A stretch of DNA of 64,000 bases, from the NCBI GenBank assembly GCA_030065615.1, contig JASJDR010000013.1, positions 1-64,000 on the forward strand, given 5' to 3'. Numbering within the stretch: the first letter of the stretch is position 1; each line of letters begins with the position of its first letter. Source of the DNA: Xenococcus sp. MO_188.B8 (GTDB taxonomy: Bacteria > Cyanobacteriota > Cyanobacteriia > Cyanobacteriales > Xenococcaceae). Below the pieces are notes generated by a model. The model made no database searches. It had not been told where the DNA came from and saw only the letters and a program-made list of their open reading frames with translations. The translations under genes were made by a program, and so were the position numbers. This document shows, piece after piece, positions 25,551-39,827 of the stretch.

Positions 25551-25650
25551 TTGACATACTCCCCAGCCTAAAAGCGTGGGGATTCTAGTACCTCACGATA
25601 CTAGTTTTCTGCTTCTATCTGTGCTAACTAGAATATCGTTGCCGATACTC
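25551..25650 (-). ncRNA. Probable 3' part of the TnpB guide RNA (reRNA/omegaRNA)
   Basis: In this family the guide RNA scaffold comes from the end of tnpB and the right end, and the guide is copied from the flanking DNA. The hairpin at 25561-25583 and the terminal GTCAA fit. The guide would start at 25550 and read on the minus strand as AATGGGGATGTTGC, running towards arsR. The 5' limit is not determined. Confidence 0.35.
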
Positions 25651-26834
25651 CCCGTCGCATCCAGTCCACAGACATTTTGGAACACGCTATGCCCTAGCGC
25701 GTTTACACCACGATTCCTAATTTCTTGAGCGGCAGCTACATCTCTGGTGGTGGTGTATCCACAATCAATACAATTATGTACTCTGACATCTAAAGTCTTC
25801 TTCCCAGTATGCGCTCCACAATTGGGACAAGTTTGAGAAGTTCCATTTTTATCTATCTTGGCAAAGTAAGTATCCGTTTTCCAACAAACCCATTGCAAGA
25901 TATTCACAAACTGACCAAAACCAGCATCTGCTGAAGAACTAGAAAGCATTCCTCTAGCCCAAATAACAAAATTAAGATCTTCGAAAAATATCATGCCAGC
26001 TCCTGCACAAAGTTGATGGGCTAACTTAAAATGCCAATCCTTTCTAGTATCAGAGATTCTTTGATGTAACCTAGCTATTTTCTGGTTGAGCTTCTGTCGA
26101 TTATTTGAACCCTTTTGCTTGTTCCTTAATCTACGTTGCAGCAATTTCAGCTTGCGCTGTAATGTTTTAAGGAATCGAGGTCGCTTAATCTCTTGGCCGT
26201 CACTAGTTACTACAAACTTATCAAAGCCCAAATCCAAACCTCTGGGATGTCCATGAGGTAAAGGATTAGCAACTGTAACATCTAACTGTAGTGACAAGAT
26301 AACAAAATAACCAGAGGCTTTTCTAACTATTCTTGCTTGCTTCGGAGTAAAACCATCAGGAATGGGACGAGACATTCTCCACCTAACTTCTTTTAGCCCT
26401 GGAAGCTTAATGGTTTTGGTGCTTATGGGATTTTTGCCTAACTGAGGAAAGACAAAAGAACGCATCCGATATTTATTCTTAAAGCGCGGCAGTCCAAATC
26501 CCCTAGCTTTCATGTCATCCCAAGCTCTATCTAATGTTCTTAATGTCTGTTGTAGAACCTGTGAATGAACTGATTTCAGTATAGGATGTTGTTTCTTAGC
26601 CTCAGTCAGTTGTTTGGCTTGACGATGATAGTTCGGAAATGGCTCATCAACAGGAATAATGTATTCTTTTTCAATTGAGCAAGCATTCAGAGGAGACTTA
26701 CGAGAAGCACACCAGTCTTTGCGCTGTCTCAGCGCAAAATTCCACACAGAACTACAAACATCTAGCGTTTGCTCTATGATGTCAATTTGCTCTATTGTGG
26801 GCTCTAGTTTGTACTCGTAGTTCATTGTTAGCAT
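25593..26834 (-). CDS. tnpB: TnpB RNA-guided nuclease
   Basis: 413 residues and apparently intact. The three RuvC acidic residues are present: Asp in GLDLGFDKFVV (about 197), Glu in MIFFEDLNFV (about 286) and Asp in TTTRDVAAAQEI (about 371). The zinc finger between the second and third motifs has CPNCG and CIDCG. The N-terminal helix-turn-helix-like region (NYEYKLEPTIEQIDIIEQTL) is normal. TnpB proteins use a guide RNA to cut donor sites and so retain the element. An internal start at 26825 is possible. Confidence 0.9.
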   Translation of the reverse strand: MLTMNYEYKLEPTIEQIDIIEQTLDVCSSVWNFALRQRKDWCASRKSPLNACSIEKEYIIPVDEPFPNYHRQAKQLTEAKKQHPILKSVHSQVLQQTLRTLDRAWDDMKARGFGLPRFKNKYRMRSFVFPQLGKNPISTKTIKLPGLKEVRWRMSRPIPDGFTPKQARIVRKASGYFVILSLQLDVTVANPLPHGHPRGLDLGFDKFVVTSDGQEIKRPRFLKTLQRKLKLLQRRLRNKQKGSNNRQKLNQKIARLHQRISDTRKDWHFKLAHQLCAGAGMIFFEDLNFVIWARGMLSSSSADAGFGQFVNILQWVCWKTDTYFAKIDKNGTSQTCPNCGAHTGKKTLDVRVHNCIDCGYTTTRDVAAAQEIRNRGVNALGHSVFQNVCGLDATGSIGNDILVSTDRSRKLVS

Positions 26835-30979: not shown

Positions 30980-33900
30980 ATGGCTAGGAATTGGGCGATC
31001 GCGATCGGGATAAATCAGTACGATAATCTACCAAATCTTAAATATGCTGTGCGTGATGCTGAGTCAATGAAAGATTGGTTTGAGTCGGAAGCAGGATTTG
31101 ACAAGGTTTATCTGTTTACTGATACTTCGCCACCAATCACAGATGGAACTAAGCCCTATAGCTCTCAGCCGAGTCGTGCCACGTTACGCAGATTTTTGCG
31201 AGTCAGATTTGAACAACCTTTCCTGTCGGCAGGGGATAATTTATGGTTCTTTTTTAGCGGTCATGGAATGCGCTATGCCAATCGTGATTATTTGATGCCC
31301 TCGCATGTCGATCCCCATCCTGAGGAGCTAGAAAGTTCAGCAATTCCTTTAGCATATGTCACCGAACGCCTCAGAAGATGTGGTGCAGATAATATCGTTT
31401 TGATACTGGATGCCTGTCGGGATGAAGAAGGCTCGAAGGGATTGGGAGTAGGAGAAGAGAAGCAACAAGGAGTTATTACCATTGTTTCCTGTAGTCCAGC
31501 AGAAAGATCCTATGAAATTGAGGAATTGCAACAGGGTTCTTTTACCTATAGTTTATTGCGAGGATTGAGAATTCAAGGGGAAGGTAACTGTGCAACGGTA
31601 GAAAGGCTATCTCACTATTTGAGACATCAAGTTCCTGAGATTAATCGCATTTATCAGAAACCAAGACAAACTCCCTATGCTATAGCTGAACCAGCAACTA
31701 AATATCATCTAATTTTATTGCCTGAATACGCCACTCTCAAGGATGCAGAAACTTTGAAGTGGGATGCCTCTAATGCTGAATTAAATAAAAACTATTCTAT
31801 GGCAGAACAATTATGGATTCGGGTTTTAGTGGTTTCACCAGGGGATCAAGATGCGATTGCTGGAATTCGTCGATTGGGTCCAGAAACAACTATTGTAGAG
31901 CCTCAAGTTGTTAGACCTAGAATAGATAAAATATGTAATTTACTAAATCGTAATTTTTTTCCTACGTTCAATTTAAAAAGACGGCGTTTACTACAAATTA
32001 TTGGTTTTGCTGGAACAGGAATTGGCGTAGCTTTTTTGGTCAGAACGATACCAAAGTTGAAACCTAAGTCTCAAGCTAGAACAATCAATGATTTAGTCAA
32101 ACAAACTGCACTGCAAAATATTAACGTTCCACAAGCGATTGAAGAATCTGGCTCCAATCCTGTAAAAATTGCGATTCTTGCTGATGGGGTATCACCTTAT
32201 TTGATAGAAGTTCTTGGCGATCGTATTCTTGAAGGTAAAAGTTTTATCTCTGGAGAAACAATTTTTAATTCAGAAAATGATCATGGTACATTAGTATCTT
32301 CAATAGTCGCGGCAATTGCCCCTAAAGCAATAATTCTTCCTGTAAAAGTTCTGGCAAATAAGGGATCTGGAGCTGATGGTGGAATACTTTCGGGAATTAG
32401 ATACGCAATAGAAGACAAAGCAGATATATTGCTAATGGCTTTTGGCGCATCGGTGGGAGAAGAAGCTCCAGAATCAATAGCTTACAAGCAAATATTTCAG
32501 GAAGCTCAAGAAGAAAAGATTTTGCCTATTGCTCCTGCGGGAAGTCATTCACCCTCTCAAAAATTTCGTAAATATCGTCCTGCTTTTTTCCCAAATGTAC
32601 TAGCAGTAGCAGCAACAGATAATCAAGGTCAACTTGCTGATTTATCCAATTTTGGAGAATGGGTTTCTCTAGCAGCTCCCGGCGTTAATATTACTTCTTT
32701 TGGTTTAAATTGGAAACCTCAATCTTTTTCTAGTAGTAATATTAGTGCTGCGATCGCTGCTGGGGTAGTAGCACTAATGCTATCTGTTAACCCTAATTTA
32801 ACTCCTGATGAAATAGAAGAAATATTACAAGAAACCAGTACTAATAAATCAGAACTAAAACAAAAAATTGCTTCGGGTCAAATTGATGCTCTAGCAGCTG
32901 TAAAAAAAGTCAAATCTGAGTTTCCAACTCGAGTCATATATGATTTAGTAAAGCAGACAGCATTGCAAAATATTAATATTCCAAAAGCAATAGAAGAATC
33001 TGGCTCCAATCCTGTAAAAATTGCGATTCTTGCTGATGGCGTATCATCTTATTTGATAGAAGTTATTGGTGATCGTATTCTTGAGGGTAAAAGTTTTATC
33101 TCTGGAGAAACAATTATTAACTCAGAAAATAATCATGGTCTATTAGTACATTCTATAGTCGCGGCAGTTGCGCCAAAAGCAACAATTCTTCCTGTGATAG
33201 TTCTGGGAAATAGTAGAGGTGGTCATTTTGAGGAAATACTTGAGGGAATTAAATACGCAATAGAAGAACAAGCAGATATATTGCTAATGCCATTTGGAGC
33301 AACTCTGAAAGAAGAAGACCTGGCATCATTATCAACAGTTTACAAGAGAATTTTTAAGAAAGCTAAAACCGCAAAGAGTTTGTCTATTGCTGCTGCGGGT
33401 ATTAATTCATCCTCTGAAAGAGAATACCCTGCTGCTGTACCAGATGTGCTAGCAGTAACAGCAACGGATAATCAAGGTCAACTTGCTAATTTTTCCAGTT
33501 ATGGAGAATGGGTTTCTATCGCAGTTCCTGGCGTTAATATTACTTCTATTGGGTTAGATGGAAAGCCCCAATCTATTTCTGGTAGTAGCTATTCTGCTGC
33601 GATCGCTGCTGGGGTAGCAGCACTGATGCTATCTGTTAACCCTGATTTAACTCCTGATGAAATAGAAGAAATATTACAAGAAACTAGTACTAACAAATCA
33701 GAACTACAACAAAAAATTGCTTCTGGTCAAATTGATGCTCTAGCAGCCGTGAAAAAAGTCAAATCTCAGTTACCAGCTCAAGCCGTATATGATTTAGTAA
33801 AACAACCAGAATTACAAAATATTAACATTCCACAAGCAATTGCAGAATCTGCCTCCAATCCTGTAAAAATTGCGATTCTTGCGGAGGGAGTATCATCATC

Positions 33901-35452
33901 TTTCAAACAAATTCTTGGTGCTCGTATTCTAGAAGGCAAAAGTTTTGTATATGGGGAAACAGCTACCGATTCGCAAAGTATTCATGGTACTTCGCTATCA
34001 TCAATAGTCGTAGCGGTTGCTCCTAAGGCAACAATTCTTCCAGTGAAAGTTCTTAAAGATAATGGCTCTGGTAGTAATTCTGTAATACTTCAAGGAATTG
34101 AATACGCAATAGAAGAACAAGCAGATATATTGCTAATGCCTATTGGAGGACGTGGCGTAGAATCAACATCTTTCGATAGCATTTTTAAGAAAGCTAAAAC
34201 AGCAAAGAGTTTGTCTATTGCTGCTGCGGGCATTAATTCATCTTCTAAAAAAGAATATCCTGCCGCTCTTCCCTATGTTCTAGCGTTGGCAGCAACAGAT
34301 AATCAAGGTCAACTTGCTGATTTTTCCAATTATGGAGAATGGGTTTCTCTGGCAGCTCCTGGTGTTGATATTACTTGTATTGGTTTAGATGGGAAAACTG
34401 AAACATCTATTTCTGGTAGTAGCTATTCTGCTGCGATCGCTGCTGGGGTAGCAGCTCTAATGCTATCTATTAACCCCGATTTAACTCCTAATGAAATAGA
34501 AAAAATATTACAAGAAACCAGTACTAACAAATCAGAACTACAACAAAAAATTGCTTCTGGTCAAATTGATGCTCTAGCAGCCGTGAAAAAAGCTAAATCC
34601 GAGTTTCCATCTCGACGAGCTATTTCTGAATTAGTCCAACAACCAGCATTACAAAATATTAAAATCCCGCAAGCAATTGCAGAATCTGGCTCAAATTCGG
34701 TAAAAATTGCGATTCTCGCTGATGGGGTATCGCCTTTTTTCATAGAAGTTCTTGGTGATCGTATTCTTGAAGGTAAAAGTTTTATCTCTGGAGAAACAAT
34801 TATTAATTCAGAAAATGATCATGGTACATTAGTCTCCTCAATAGTCGCGGCAGTTGCTCCCAAAGCAACAATACTTCCTGTAAAAGTTCTCGCAAATAAG
34901 GGATTTGGGGGTGATTCAGGCATACGTGACGGGATTGAATATGCAATGGAAGAACAAGCAGATATATTGCTAATGCCTTTTGGAGCACCTTCTGGAGAAT
35001 TAGGAAAATCACCAGCTTTCGATAGCACTTTTCAGAAAGCTGAACTAGCCAAAATCCTTTCCATTAGTACTGCGGGGGATGATTCATCTTTTAATAAATT
35101 TAGACCTGCTGCTAGACCATATGTACTAGCAGTAACAGCAACAGATAATCAAGGTCAACTTGCTGATTTTTCCAATTTTGGAAAATGGGTTTCTCTAGCA
35201 GCTCCTGGCGTTAATATTACTTCTTTTGGTTTAAATTGGAAACCTCAATCTTTTTCTAGTAGTAACATTAGTGCTGCGATCGCTGCTGGGGTAGCAGCAC
35301 TGATGCTATCTGTTAACCCTGATTTAACTCCTGATGAAATAGAAAAAATATTACAAGAAACCAGTACTAACAAATCAGAACTACAACAAAAAATTGCTTC
35401 TGGTCAAATTGATGCTCTAGCAGCTGTAAAAAAAGCCAAAAATTATAAATGA
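30980..35452 (+). CDS. Caspase-like protease fused to four subtilisin-like domains
   Basis: 1490 residues. Residues 1-250 are a C14 caspase-like domain with the His95 (FFFSGHG) and Cys146 (ILDACRDEE) dyad. A linker follows to one membrane helix (about 335-357, LLQIIGFAGTGIGVAFLV). The rest is four tandem S8 subtilisin-like domains of about 280 residues. Triad positions are D1: Asp402/His435/Asn587; D2: Asp686/His719/Ser870; D3: Glu969/His1002/Ser1148; D4: Asp1248/His1281/Asn1429. Only domain 2 keeps Asp-His-Ser. The others are probably inactive and may act as binding or inhibitory modules. There is no signal peptide; the single helix leaves caspase and S8 domains on opposite membrane sides if it is inserted. 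It may form a two-gene unit with the next gene. Confidence 0.85.
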   Translation: MARNWAIAIGINQYDNLPNLKYAVRDAESMKDWFESEAGFDKVYLFTDTSPPITDGTKPYSSQPSRATLRRFLRVRFEQPFLSAGDNLWFFFSGHGMRYANRDYLMPSHVDPHPEELESSAIPLAYVTERLRRCGADNIVLILDACRDEEGSKGLGVGEEKQQGVITIVSCSPAERSYEIEELQQGSFTYSLLRGLRIQGEGNCATVERLSHYLRHQVPEINRIYQKPRQTPYAIAEPATKYHLILLPEYATLKDAETLKWDASNAELNKNYSMAEQLWIRVLVVSPGDQDAIAGIRRLGPETTIVEPQVVRPRIDKICNLLNRNFFPTFNLKRRRLLQIIGFAGTGIGVAFLVRTIPKLKPKSQARTINDLVKQTALQNINVPQAIEESGSNPVKIAILADGVSPYLIEVLGDRILEGKSFISGETIFNSENDHGTLVSSIVAAIAPKAIILPVKVLANKGSGADGGILSGIRYAIEDKADILLMAFGASVGEEAPESIAYKQIFQEAQEEKILPIAPAGSHSPSQKFRKYRPAFFPNVLAVAATDNQGQLADLSNFGEWVSLAAPGVNITSFGLNWKPQSFSSSNISAAIAAGVVALMLSVNPNLTPDEIEEILQETSTNKSELKQKIASGQIDALAAVKKVKSEFPTRVIYDLVKQTALQNINIPKAIEESGSNPVKIAILADGVSSYLIEVIGDRILEGKSFISGETIINSENNHGLLVHSIVAAVAPKATILPVIVLGNSRGGHFEEILEGIKYAIEEQADILLMPFGATLKEEDLASLSTVYKRIFKKAKTAKSLSIAAAGINSSSEREYPAAVPDVLAVTATDNQGQLANFSSYGEWVSIAVPGVNITSIGLDGKPQSISGSSYSAAIAAGVAALMLSVNPDLTPDEIEEILQETSTNKSELQQKIASGQIDALAAVKKVKSQLPAQAVYDLVKQPELQNINIPQAIAESASNPVKIAILAEGVSSSFKQILGARILEGKSFVYGETATDSQSIHGTSLSSIVVAVAPKATILPVKVLKDNGSGSNSVILQGIEYAIEEQADILLMPIGGRGVESTSFDSIFKKAKTAKSLSIAAAGINSSSKKEYPAALPYVLALAATDNQGQLADFSNYGEWVSLAAPGVDITCIGLDGKTETSISGSSYSAAIAAGVAALMLSINPDLTPNEIEKILQETSTNKSELQQKIASGQIDALAAVKKAKSEFPSRRAISELVQQPALQNIKIPQAIAESGSNSVKIAILADGVSPFFIEVLGDRILEGKSFISGETIINSENDHGTLVSSIVAAVAPKATILPVKVLANKGFGGDSGIRDGIEYAMEEQADILLMPFGAPSGELGKSPAFDSTFQKAELAKILSISTAGDDSSFNKFRPAARPYVLAVTATDNQGQLADFSNFGKWVSLAAPGVNITSFGLNWKPQSFSSSNISAAIAAGVAALMLSVNPDLTPDEIEKILQETSTNKSELQQKIASGQIDALAAVKKAKNYK
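32090..35449 (+). repeat. Four tandem ~840-base coding repeats
   Basis: Units begin at 32090, 32942, 33791 and 34628 (spacing 852, 849 and 837). Their last ~170 bases are nearly identical at the DNA level (for example GCTGCGATCGCTGCTGGGGT in all four). Units 1 and 4 share the SSSNISAA version of the active-site loop, while units 2 and 3 share SGSSYSAA. Confidence 0.9.
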
Positions 35453-35590
35453 TTCTTTATAGAAGAGTCTAGAAAGTTAGAAATATGAACAGTATTAATA
35501 TTAATTTTTTCATTTTGCGTAAGTCCTATTGATCTTATTTATAAAAGAAAATAAGCTTTGATATTATGCCCAGCATTAAATTTTAAAATT

Positions 35591-35974
35591 ATGTCAAAAG
35601 AAAAAGGAATATGGTTGATTACCGAAGAAACCGAAGAAGCAGTTGCAGAAGAACCTGTTAGAGGCGGGAAAGGGGGCAGAGATACGGGAGCAGAATATAA
35701 CGACCCCTACGCTGATACAGAAAAAATTAAAAAAATACATCGCAAACGAACTCGGCTCAAATCAGAAGACTTAAAAAATAATATGAGTGAGTTCCTCGAA
35801 GTAGTAGAAGAAACTTTTGAAAAAGCCGAAAAACCTTCTTCAAGAATGCGCCTCGAAGAACTAGAGCTAGCAGTAGAAATTAATGGTGAAGCCGAGGTAA
35901 GTTTATTGGGTAACGGAGGTAAAGCTGGGGCAAAAGGCGCAATTATTCTCAAATTCAAGCGGAAAGATAGCTAG
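35591..35974 (+). CDS. Small protein with peptidase-co-occurring (Trypco/Pepco-like) domain
   Basis: 127 residues from MSKEKGIWLI; an earlier ATG at 35558 is possible. The N-terminal part is charged (TEETEEAVAEEP, then a Gly-rich RGGKGGRD). The C-terminal part reads RLEELELAVEINGEAEVSLL, then GNGGKAGAKGAIILKFKRK. This glycine-rich beta pattern resembles the short domains that travel with trypsin, subtilisin or caspase genes in bacterial conflict systems (Trypco/Pepco-type). Its place after the caspase-subtilisin gene supports a role as its partner or regulator. The assignment is from memory of the pattern. Confidence 0.6.
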   Translation: MSKEKGIWLITEETEEAVAEEPVRGGKGGRDTGAEYNDPYADTEKIKKIHRKRTRLKSEDLKNNMSEFLEVVEETFEKAEKPSSRMRLEELELAVEINGEAEVSLLGNGGKAGAKGAIILKFKRKDS

Positions 35975-39276: not shown

Positions 39277-39723
39277 TTAGTTATTTATGATGATTGAATC
39301 TAAACGAAAACAAGCAATTTTACTAATTTCTGCTAGGGCTTGGGGTTTTTCTCTTTCGATAGAGTTTTCTAAACGATCTTCAAAAGCCAACAAAATACTT
39401 TCTTTGGTATGACTTTTCACGGCAATGATAAAATGAGCTTCGCGATCGCTAATCCCAAAACGAATCGGTATTTGATCCAAAAAAAGCGGTTCAGGATAAG
39501 GTGAATACTGGGCAAAATAATTACCCACAGTAAAAACTAATTCGTATACTCCCACTTCCAGCTCTTTCCCAACCAATAATGCTTCATCTGTGCGTCCGTC
39601 ATGGTTAGTAACTGTCTCTTTTAATAAGACTTGAGGATCGAGTTGCCATAACGCGATCGCAATTACAACCGCAGAGCAACCATGAGCCGTATCCAAAACA
39701 TGAGTCGTTAATTTTCCTGGCAT
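39277..39723 (-). CDS. Hybrid of 5-hydroxyisourate hydrolase and OHCU decarboxylase tail
   Basis: 148 residues from MPGKLTTHVLDTAHG; the frame upstream to 39819 is read-through of a dispersed repeat. Residues 1-95 are 5-hydroxyisourate hydrolase (catalytic His in THVLDTAHG, Arg in HDGRTDE, end at IPIRFGISDREAHF). The conserved C-terminal YRGS-type segment is missing. In its place are about 50 residues that match the end of OHCU decarboxylase (IIAVKSHTKESILLAFEDRL, then ISKIACFRLDS). The hybrid lacks essential residues of both enzymes and is probably inactive. It looks like a deletion joining two neighbouring purine-catabolism genes. Confidence 0.75.
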   Translation of the reverse strand: MPGKLTTHVLDTAHGCSAVVIAIALWQLDPQVLLKETVTNHDGRTDEALLVGKELEVGVYELVFTVGNYFAQYSPYPEPLFLDQIPIRFGISDREAHFIIAVKSHTKESILLAFEDRLENSIEREKPQALAEISKIACFRLDSIIINN

Positions 39724-39733
39724 TACTGTCAAA

Positions 39734-39827
39734 TGTTTAATGTTTAAACTCGCGCGTTCCTTAGCGGATTCAAAATCCGCAGGGTCGAGACCCTTCGGGT
39801 AGAGCTGCGCAAGCGTCAATGTTTAGT
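39734..39827 (+). repeat. Heptamer pair plus hairpin dispersed repeat
   Basis: Two TGTTTAA heptamers (39734-39747) lead into ACTCGCGCGTTCCTTA, a hairpin GCGGATT-caa-AATCCGC (39764-39780), then AGGGTCGAGACCC, CTTCGGGTAGAGCTGCGCAA and GCGTCAATG. The stem sequence is different again from the other copies. Confidence 0.82.

Follow-up and report, generated by a model that had tools for sequence, protein, structure and literature searches.

An open reading frame in a contig of the cyanobacterium Xenococcus sp. MO_188.B8 encodes a caspase-like peptidase and four subtilisin-like (S8) domains in one chain and is followed by a gene for a small protein, which raises the question of what an array of subtilisin domains does behind a caspase. 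A sequence-only reading of the 64,000-nucleotide stretch of DNA that we analysed (hereafter the window) had answered that one S8 domain is active among three degenerate ones and that the two genes form a proteolytic defence or cell-death module. We took up this question by asking which of the predicted peptidases carry the residues that catalysis would require, with which genes the small protein is usually associated, and which known conflict systems the locus resembles.

Parts of the locus

The large gene is a single open frame on the forward strand (30980-35452; 1490 amino acids) that has no internal stop, and its parts are listed in Table 1 together with the small gene downstream. Pfam matches Peptidase_C14 at residues 3 to 232, and the caspase dyad proposed from the sequence is fully borne out: His95 (codon 31262-31264) and Cys146 (31415-31417) occupy sites at which His and Cys are the sole letters in the 128 and 127 aligned caspases of Pepco loci, respectively, in which these sites are not gapped. 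The four S8 domains are equally real, with Peptidase_S8 (PF00082) matching in four stretches (E 6e-113) that follow each other head to tail with a period of 837-852 nucleotides, and at the protein level repeat 2 shares 74% identity with each of repeats 1, 3 and 4. The membrane helix noted earlier holds up less well, as a segment of this kind is present at residues 337-355 but is only borderline hydrophobic on the Kyte-Doolittle scale and no more so than segments buried in the S8 domains of this chain. Scanning the locus for promoters and terminators gave signals near chance.

The small protein, which had been likened to the peptidase-co-occurring domains of conflict systems, indeed belongs to the Pepco family of Pfam (105.7 bits against a cut-off of 27), a name known from that database; our literature search found no paper on the domain. 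Its AlphaFold model (mean pLDDT 74) comprises one long helix and five strands, and a comparison of this predicted fold with the PDB gave no match (best Foldseek E 1.3; best VIA-align Z 2.2). Trypco1 is only weakly matched, with a Pfam E of 0.12 and an hhalign probability of 13% over 35 columns.

Table 1. Features of the caspase-S8 gene and its Pepco neighbour (positions in the window).
Feature	Positions	Strand	Remarks
C14 caspase-like peptidase domain	30980..31714	+	residues 1-245; PF00656 E 6e-20; dyad intact
Remainder of constant N-terminal part, to residue ~299	31715..31876	+	61-67% identity to FGE-bearing caspases ends here
Possible membrane helix, residues 337-355	31988..32044	+	Kyte-Doolittle mean 1.69, borderline
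S8 repeat 1, pseudo-protease	32090..32935	+	Asp32>Ala, Asn155>Ser, Ser221>Asn, Pro225>Ala; His kept
S8 repeat 2, pseudo-protease	32936..33787	+	Asp32>Ala685, Asn155>Ile, Pro225>Ala; His719 and Ser870 kept
S8 repeat 3, pseudo-protease	33788..34621	+	Asp32>Ala, then Glu; Asn155>Ile, Pro225>Ala; His and Ser kept
S8 repeat 4, pseudo-protease	34622..35449	+	Asp32>Ala, Asn155>Asp, Ser221>Asn, Pro225>Ala; His kept
Pepco small protein, 127 aa	35591..35974	+	PF24393 E 2.4e-30; recurrent C14 partner

Catalytic state of the S8 repeats

The idea of a caspase-subtilisin cascade depended on repeat 2, to which a full Asp686-His719-Ser870 triad had been ascribed. All letters were read correctly, including the Asn that repeats 1 and 4 have at the Ser site and the Glu of repeat 3, but the triad itself does not stand. 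Repeat 2 matches subtilisin BPN' in the PDB with an E of 3e-27 (phmmer), and its Asp motif aligns to that of BPN' free of gaps (VKIAILADGV versus VKVAVIDSGI), so that the position of the catalytic Asp32 is taken by Ala685 while Asp686 lies one residue downstream at the position of Ser33. The two best PDB matches of repeat 2 are subtilisin chains that likewise have Ala at the Asp32 site.

This pattern extends to the whole array. We aligned 46 S8 sequences, comprising 41 comparison proteins and five copies of the module (the four repeats studied here and one on another contig of the same genome, C169). While D32, H64, N155, S221 and P225 are present in 41/41 comparison proteins, the five module copies have Ala at position 32, Ser, Ile, Ile, Asp and Asp at position 155, Asn, Ser, Ser, Asn and Ser at position 221, and Ala at position 225; His64 is the only one of these five residues that all copies retain. 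Despite membership in the S8 family by sequence, the Asp32-His64-Ser221 triad with Asn155 is absent as a set from all four repeats, each of which has an acidic residue adjoining the catalytic Asp site. The five copies form one group with full support and a long stem, and because the losses of Asp and Pro are common to all of them, inactivation is most simply older than the duplications. An AlphaFold model of repeat 2, computed from an alignment of the four repeats only, has a pLDDT of 36, at which the geometry of the shifted Asp is not readable.

Judged by these alignments, no S8 repeat is a credible protease, since the catalytic Asp, the oxyanion Asn and the conserved Pro are gone in all four, and we have little doubt about the domain identities or about the S8 domains being catalytically dead. 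An active repeat 2 that would use the Asp one residue downstream within a caspase-subtilisin cascade, for which His719 and Ser870 in register and the acidic residue beside the Asp site might speak, is barely credible and rejected on the alignment register, with Ala at Asp32, Ile at the oxyanion Asn and the Pro lost against 41/41 intact relatives and with the sequence flanking the Asp motif aligning without a gap. The active subtilisin, the zymogen-like arrangement and the cascade built on them accordingly find no support. Activity probably resides in the caspase as the sole working protease of this locus, given that its dyad is intact, as are those of the aligned relatives.

The Pepco-caspase pair in cyanobacteria

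We sampled Pepco loci in two overlapping sets, 71 from genomes of the phylum and 80 from a scan of genome contigs that are all cyanobacterial by title. A same-strand C14 gene adjoins Pepco at 56 of the 71 loci (Pepco upstream in 55, plus the window itself in reversed order) and at 64 of the 80 (Pepco upstream in 60, reversed in 4 with gaps of 97-252 bases). Overall, Pepco has a C14 neighbour at roughly 80% of the approximately 150 loci sampled. These neighbour statistics, found in both samples, support the view that the caspase gene and the small gene form a real, recurrent pair. The window has the caspase first and Pepco second on the same strand, separated by 138 bases; this order is the rare one, the usual order being Pepco first, and is a point against the reading preferred below.

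What varies among the partners of Pepco is the tail. All 48 scanned partner proteins (48/48) contain C14, and their tails are mostly FGE-sulfatase (32) or GUN4 (12), with DnaJ_C, nSTAND5, iHD-CE with wHTH-HSP90, RDD and HTH as singleton types. At one Pepco locus (L106 7878-13271), the neighbouring caspase is 1797 aa long and continues into iHD-CE and wHTH-HSP90-associated domains. The genome of the window carries a second Pepco-caspase pair on contig C180 (L125 / L001), whose 319-aa caspase has a short FGE-like tail and is apparently shortened. A profile search detected no S8 gene at any other sampled Pepco locus, and among the genomes sampled, the S8-tailed caspase was seen in a single one. 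For the S8 module as such, a search limited to scoring a few top candidates in each genome found no close relatives in the other sampled genomes of the class, with none above about 114 bits versus more than 500 for its own copies. The architecture expected to recur in other genomes therefore does so in its Pepco-caspase core, which is common, but not in its S8 tail, which was found at no other sampled Pepco locus.

The constant part of the window caspase (residues 1-299) is 67% identical to that of locus L187, 64% to L194 and 61% each to L114 and L247, over spans from residues 1-299 to 1-308, and the caspases of L187 and L114 end in FGE-type tails. As the window Pepco is also closest to those of L114 and L187 (54-60% identity), it appears that Pepco and the constant half have travelled together while the tail has been replaced. 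Across 119 pairs, the similarity matrices of Pepco and caspase correlate with an r of 0.70 (best of 999 permutations: 0.20), a correlation that is partly due to shared species ancestry. The window locus has a Pepco domain, an adjacent same-strand C14 gene and an intact His/Cys dyad, and we assign it with high confidence to the Pepco-caspase family.

Genomic setting and possible role of the S8 array

The fifth copy of the S8 module lies on contig C169 (L158 3966-8925), where an iSTAND gene (PF19995, E 4e-17), a MoxR-type AAA ATPase gene and a gene for a protein of at least 959 amino acids with predicted membrane helices stand in a row. We regard the latter protein as vWA-like by its sequence and context, and Pfam reported no vWA match in it. 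Its C-terminal end is a dead S8 module with a DNA identity of 84-86% to repeats 1, 2 and 4 and 81% to repeat 3, and the contig stops inside this repeat. With the protein read in this way, the set agrees with the MoxR-vWA-iSTAND ternary systems described earlier (PMC7159879), of which this genome would thus have one whose vWA-like protein ends in the S8 module. The window locus differs from these systems by having no MoxR, vWA or iSTAND gene next to it, and its checked neighbours are metabolic or without family assignment. One flank holds cobyric acid synthase-like, DprA-like and MAPEG genes, and genes of the amidohydrolase, iron-type alcohol dehydrogenase, HIUase/OHCU, aldehyde dehydrogenase and sodium-solute symporter types lie in the other. 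Most nearest neighbours were assigned by Pfam to families other than gasdermin. The defence-island location considered before was not seen, the neighbours being mostly metabolic plus a TnpB gene. In a congener (G001), we found no Pepco; both flanks of the locus are about 85% conserved there and lie on different contigs, so that an empty-site comparison is not readable.

Two features of this neighbourhood are noted for their own sake. The TnpB-family gene (25593-26834, reverse strand; NF040570) encodes a stand-alone RNA-guided endonuclease, and the gene at 39277-39819 (reverse strand) combines an HIUase/transthyretin domain with a subsequent partial OHCU decarboxylase match and, near the amidohydrolase and sodium-solute symporter genes, is perhaps part of a purine breakdown cluster.

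Several described systems offer points of comparison. In EACC1-caspase systems (System 4), a small constant partner, usually encoded 5', accompanies a protein with an N-terminal caspase and a variable C-terminus, and activation by auto-proteolysis has been proposed (PMC7159879). The window locus shares the layout of a small constant partner and an N-terminal caspase with a variable C-terminus, but this partner is Pepco and not the membrane protein EACC1 (no EACC1 match by Pfam), its caspase reaches only 65 bits with NF047832 ("caspase, EACC1-associated type"; cut-off 140), and EACC1 systems are mostly actinobacterial (PMC7159879), unlike the scanned Pepco loci (80/80 cyanobacterial by title). 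It shares a caspase half of 61-67% identity and an adjacent Pepco with the cyanobacterial caspase-FGE-sulfatase and caspase-GUN4 orthocaspases (PMC3501461, PMC7517822, PMC10907252), but has four dead S8 repeats in the place of the FGE domain. Subtilisin domains that lack the triad and are kept as sensors or regulators are known from Clostridioides difficile CspC and CspA (PMC6636752), in another context with neither a caspase nor a tandem array; for the pseudo-subtilase CspC, ligand sensing has been proposed (PMC6636752). Inactive enzymes in the variable position of conflict systems, deployed as decoys, have been described as well (PMC7159879). The earlier statement that no such system was known thus needs to be narrowed: caspases with a small partner and a variable tail, and inactive enzymes in that position, had already been described, and what is particular here is an S8-tailed form present at no other sampled Pepco locus. 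The proposed two-gene defence or death module keeps its basis in the recurrent pair and in the domain vocabulary of predicted conflict systems and loses its active-subtilisin part.

We consider it reasonably likely that the locus represents a Pepco-caspase two-gene system in which four tandem, catalytically inactive subtilisin domains have been swapped in at the variable C-terminal position, with a proposed role in sensing. How this might work can be outlined tentatively. The S8 array would be a binding surface and, as sensor or decoy, recognise the substrate of a protease, a propeptide or an inhibitor, for example one of a phage or of a host S8 protease, and Pepco would serve as an adaptor or brake. 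Binding would set the caspase free to cut cellular proteins or the tail attached to it, and growth arrest or cell death would follow. We prefer a sensor role because the tail slot is elsewhere filled by FGE-type or GUN4 domains and because orthocaspase domains are N-terminal in DGR-diversified variable proteins of cyanobacteria (PMC7517822).

The main rival is that the tail could be an effector. The S8 array would then be a payload, with the caspase cleaving the chain and the freed dead subtilisins acting as dominant-negative decoys or substrate traps. This fits the account of Kaur et al., in which modules are acquired "typically in inactive form" and caspase auto-proteolysis releases effectors (PMC7159879), as well as the C-terminal place of the module in the vWA-like protein, which is the effector position of MoxR-vWA systems; S8 proteins with intact residues in the same genome (L159, L160 and L161) might be targets of mimicry. 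Nevertheless, we think it rather unlikely, as the slot beside Pepco mostly holds FGE and GUN4, which are more naturally ligand-binding sensors, and no cleavage site was identified. The sensor reading can also be taken further, to dead subtilisins as an exchangeable antigen- or inhibitor-sensing cassette that was amplified in tandem, moved between the Pepco-caspase and iSTAND-MoxR-vWA cores of one genome, and would report proteases, propeptides or inhibitors of phages or predators to trigger caspase-mediated cell death; this extension is speculative and, in our view, doubtful.

A decaying S8 array might also have recombined behind the caspase by chance and have no function. Its detection in one genome only and the long exact stretches common to the repeats, which favour recombination, would suit this idea, and dN/dS values of 0.42-0.66 among the repeats and the C169 copy are not very low, indicating weak to moderate constraint that is above the expectation for a dead gene but not strong. 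However, dN is below dS in 10/10 comparisons, 1490 codons run without a stop, and this genome has the module in two conflict-system contexts, all of which makes a chance fusion improbable.

Even less probable is an assembly artefact by which the true neighbour of Pepco would be the vWA-S8 gene of C169 and the caspase-S8 gene would continue elsewhere. The array of four repeats is probably right, with exact repeats inside it of at most 91 bp and none of 101 bases or more. Its join to Pepco is the one doubtful point, where adjacency could be affected by assembly, as C169 ends within a 119-bp exact match to window positions 35272-35390 that would be a typical branch point. The pairing is nevertheless argued to be genuine because the caspase and Pepco of the window match the same foreign pairs best (L187 and L114), and Pepco pairs with C14 elsewhere, too.

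The analysis of this locus sets right the claim of a caspase-subtilisin cascade, which was plausible but wrong. It also directs attention to the Pepco-caspase pair, in which, as neighbour statistics document, the core is constant and the tail exchangeable, and of which our literature search found no description. Finally, with one dead-enzyme module in two predicted conflict systems of a single genome, the idea that inactive enzymes serve as sensors or decoys can be tested on one and the same cassette.
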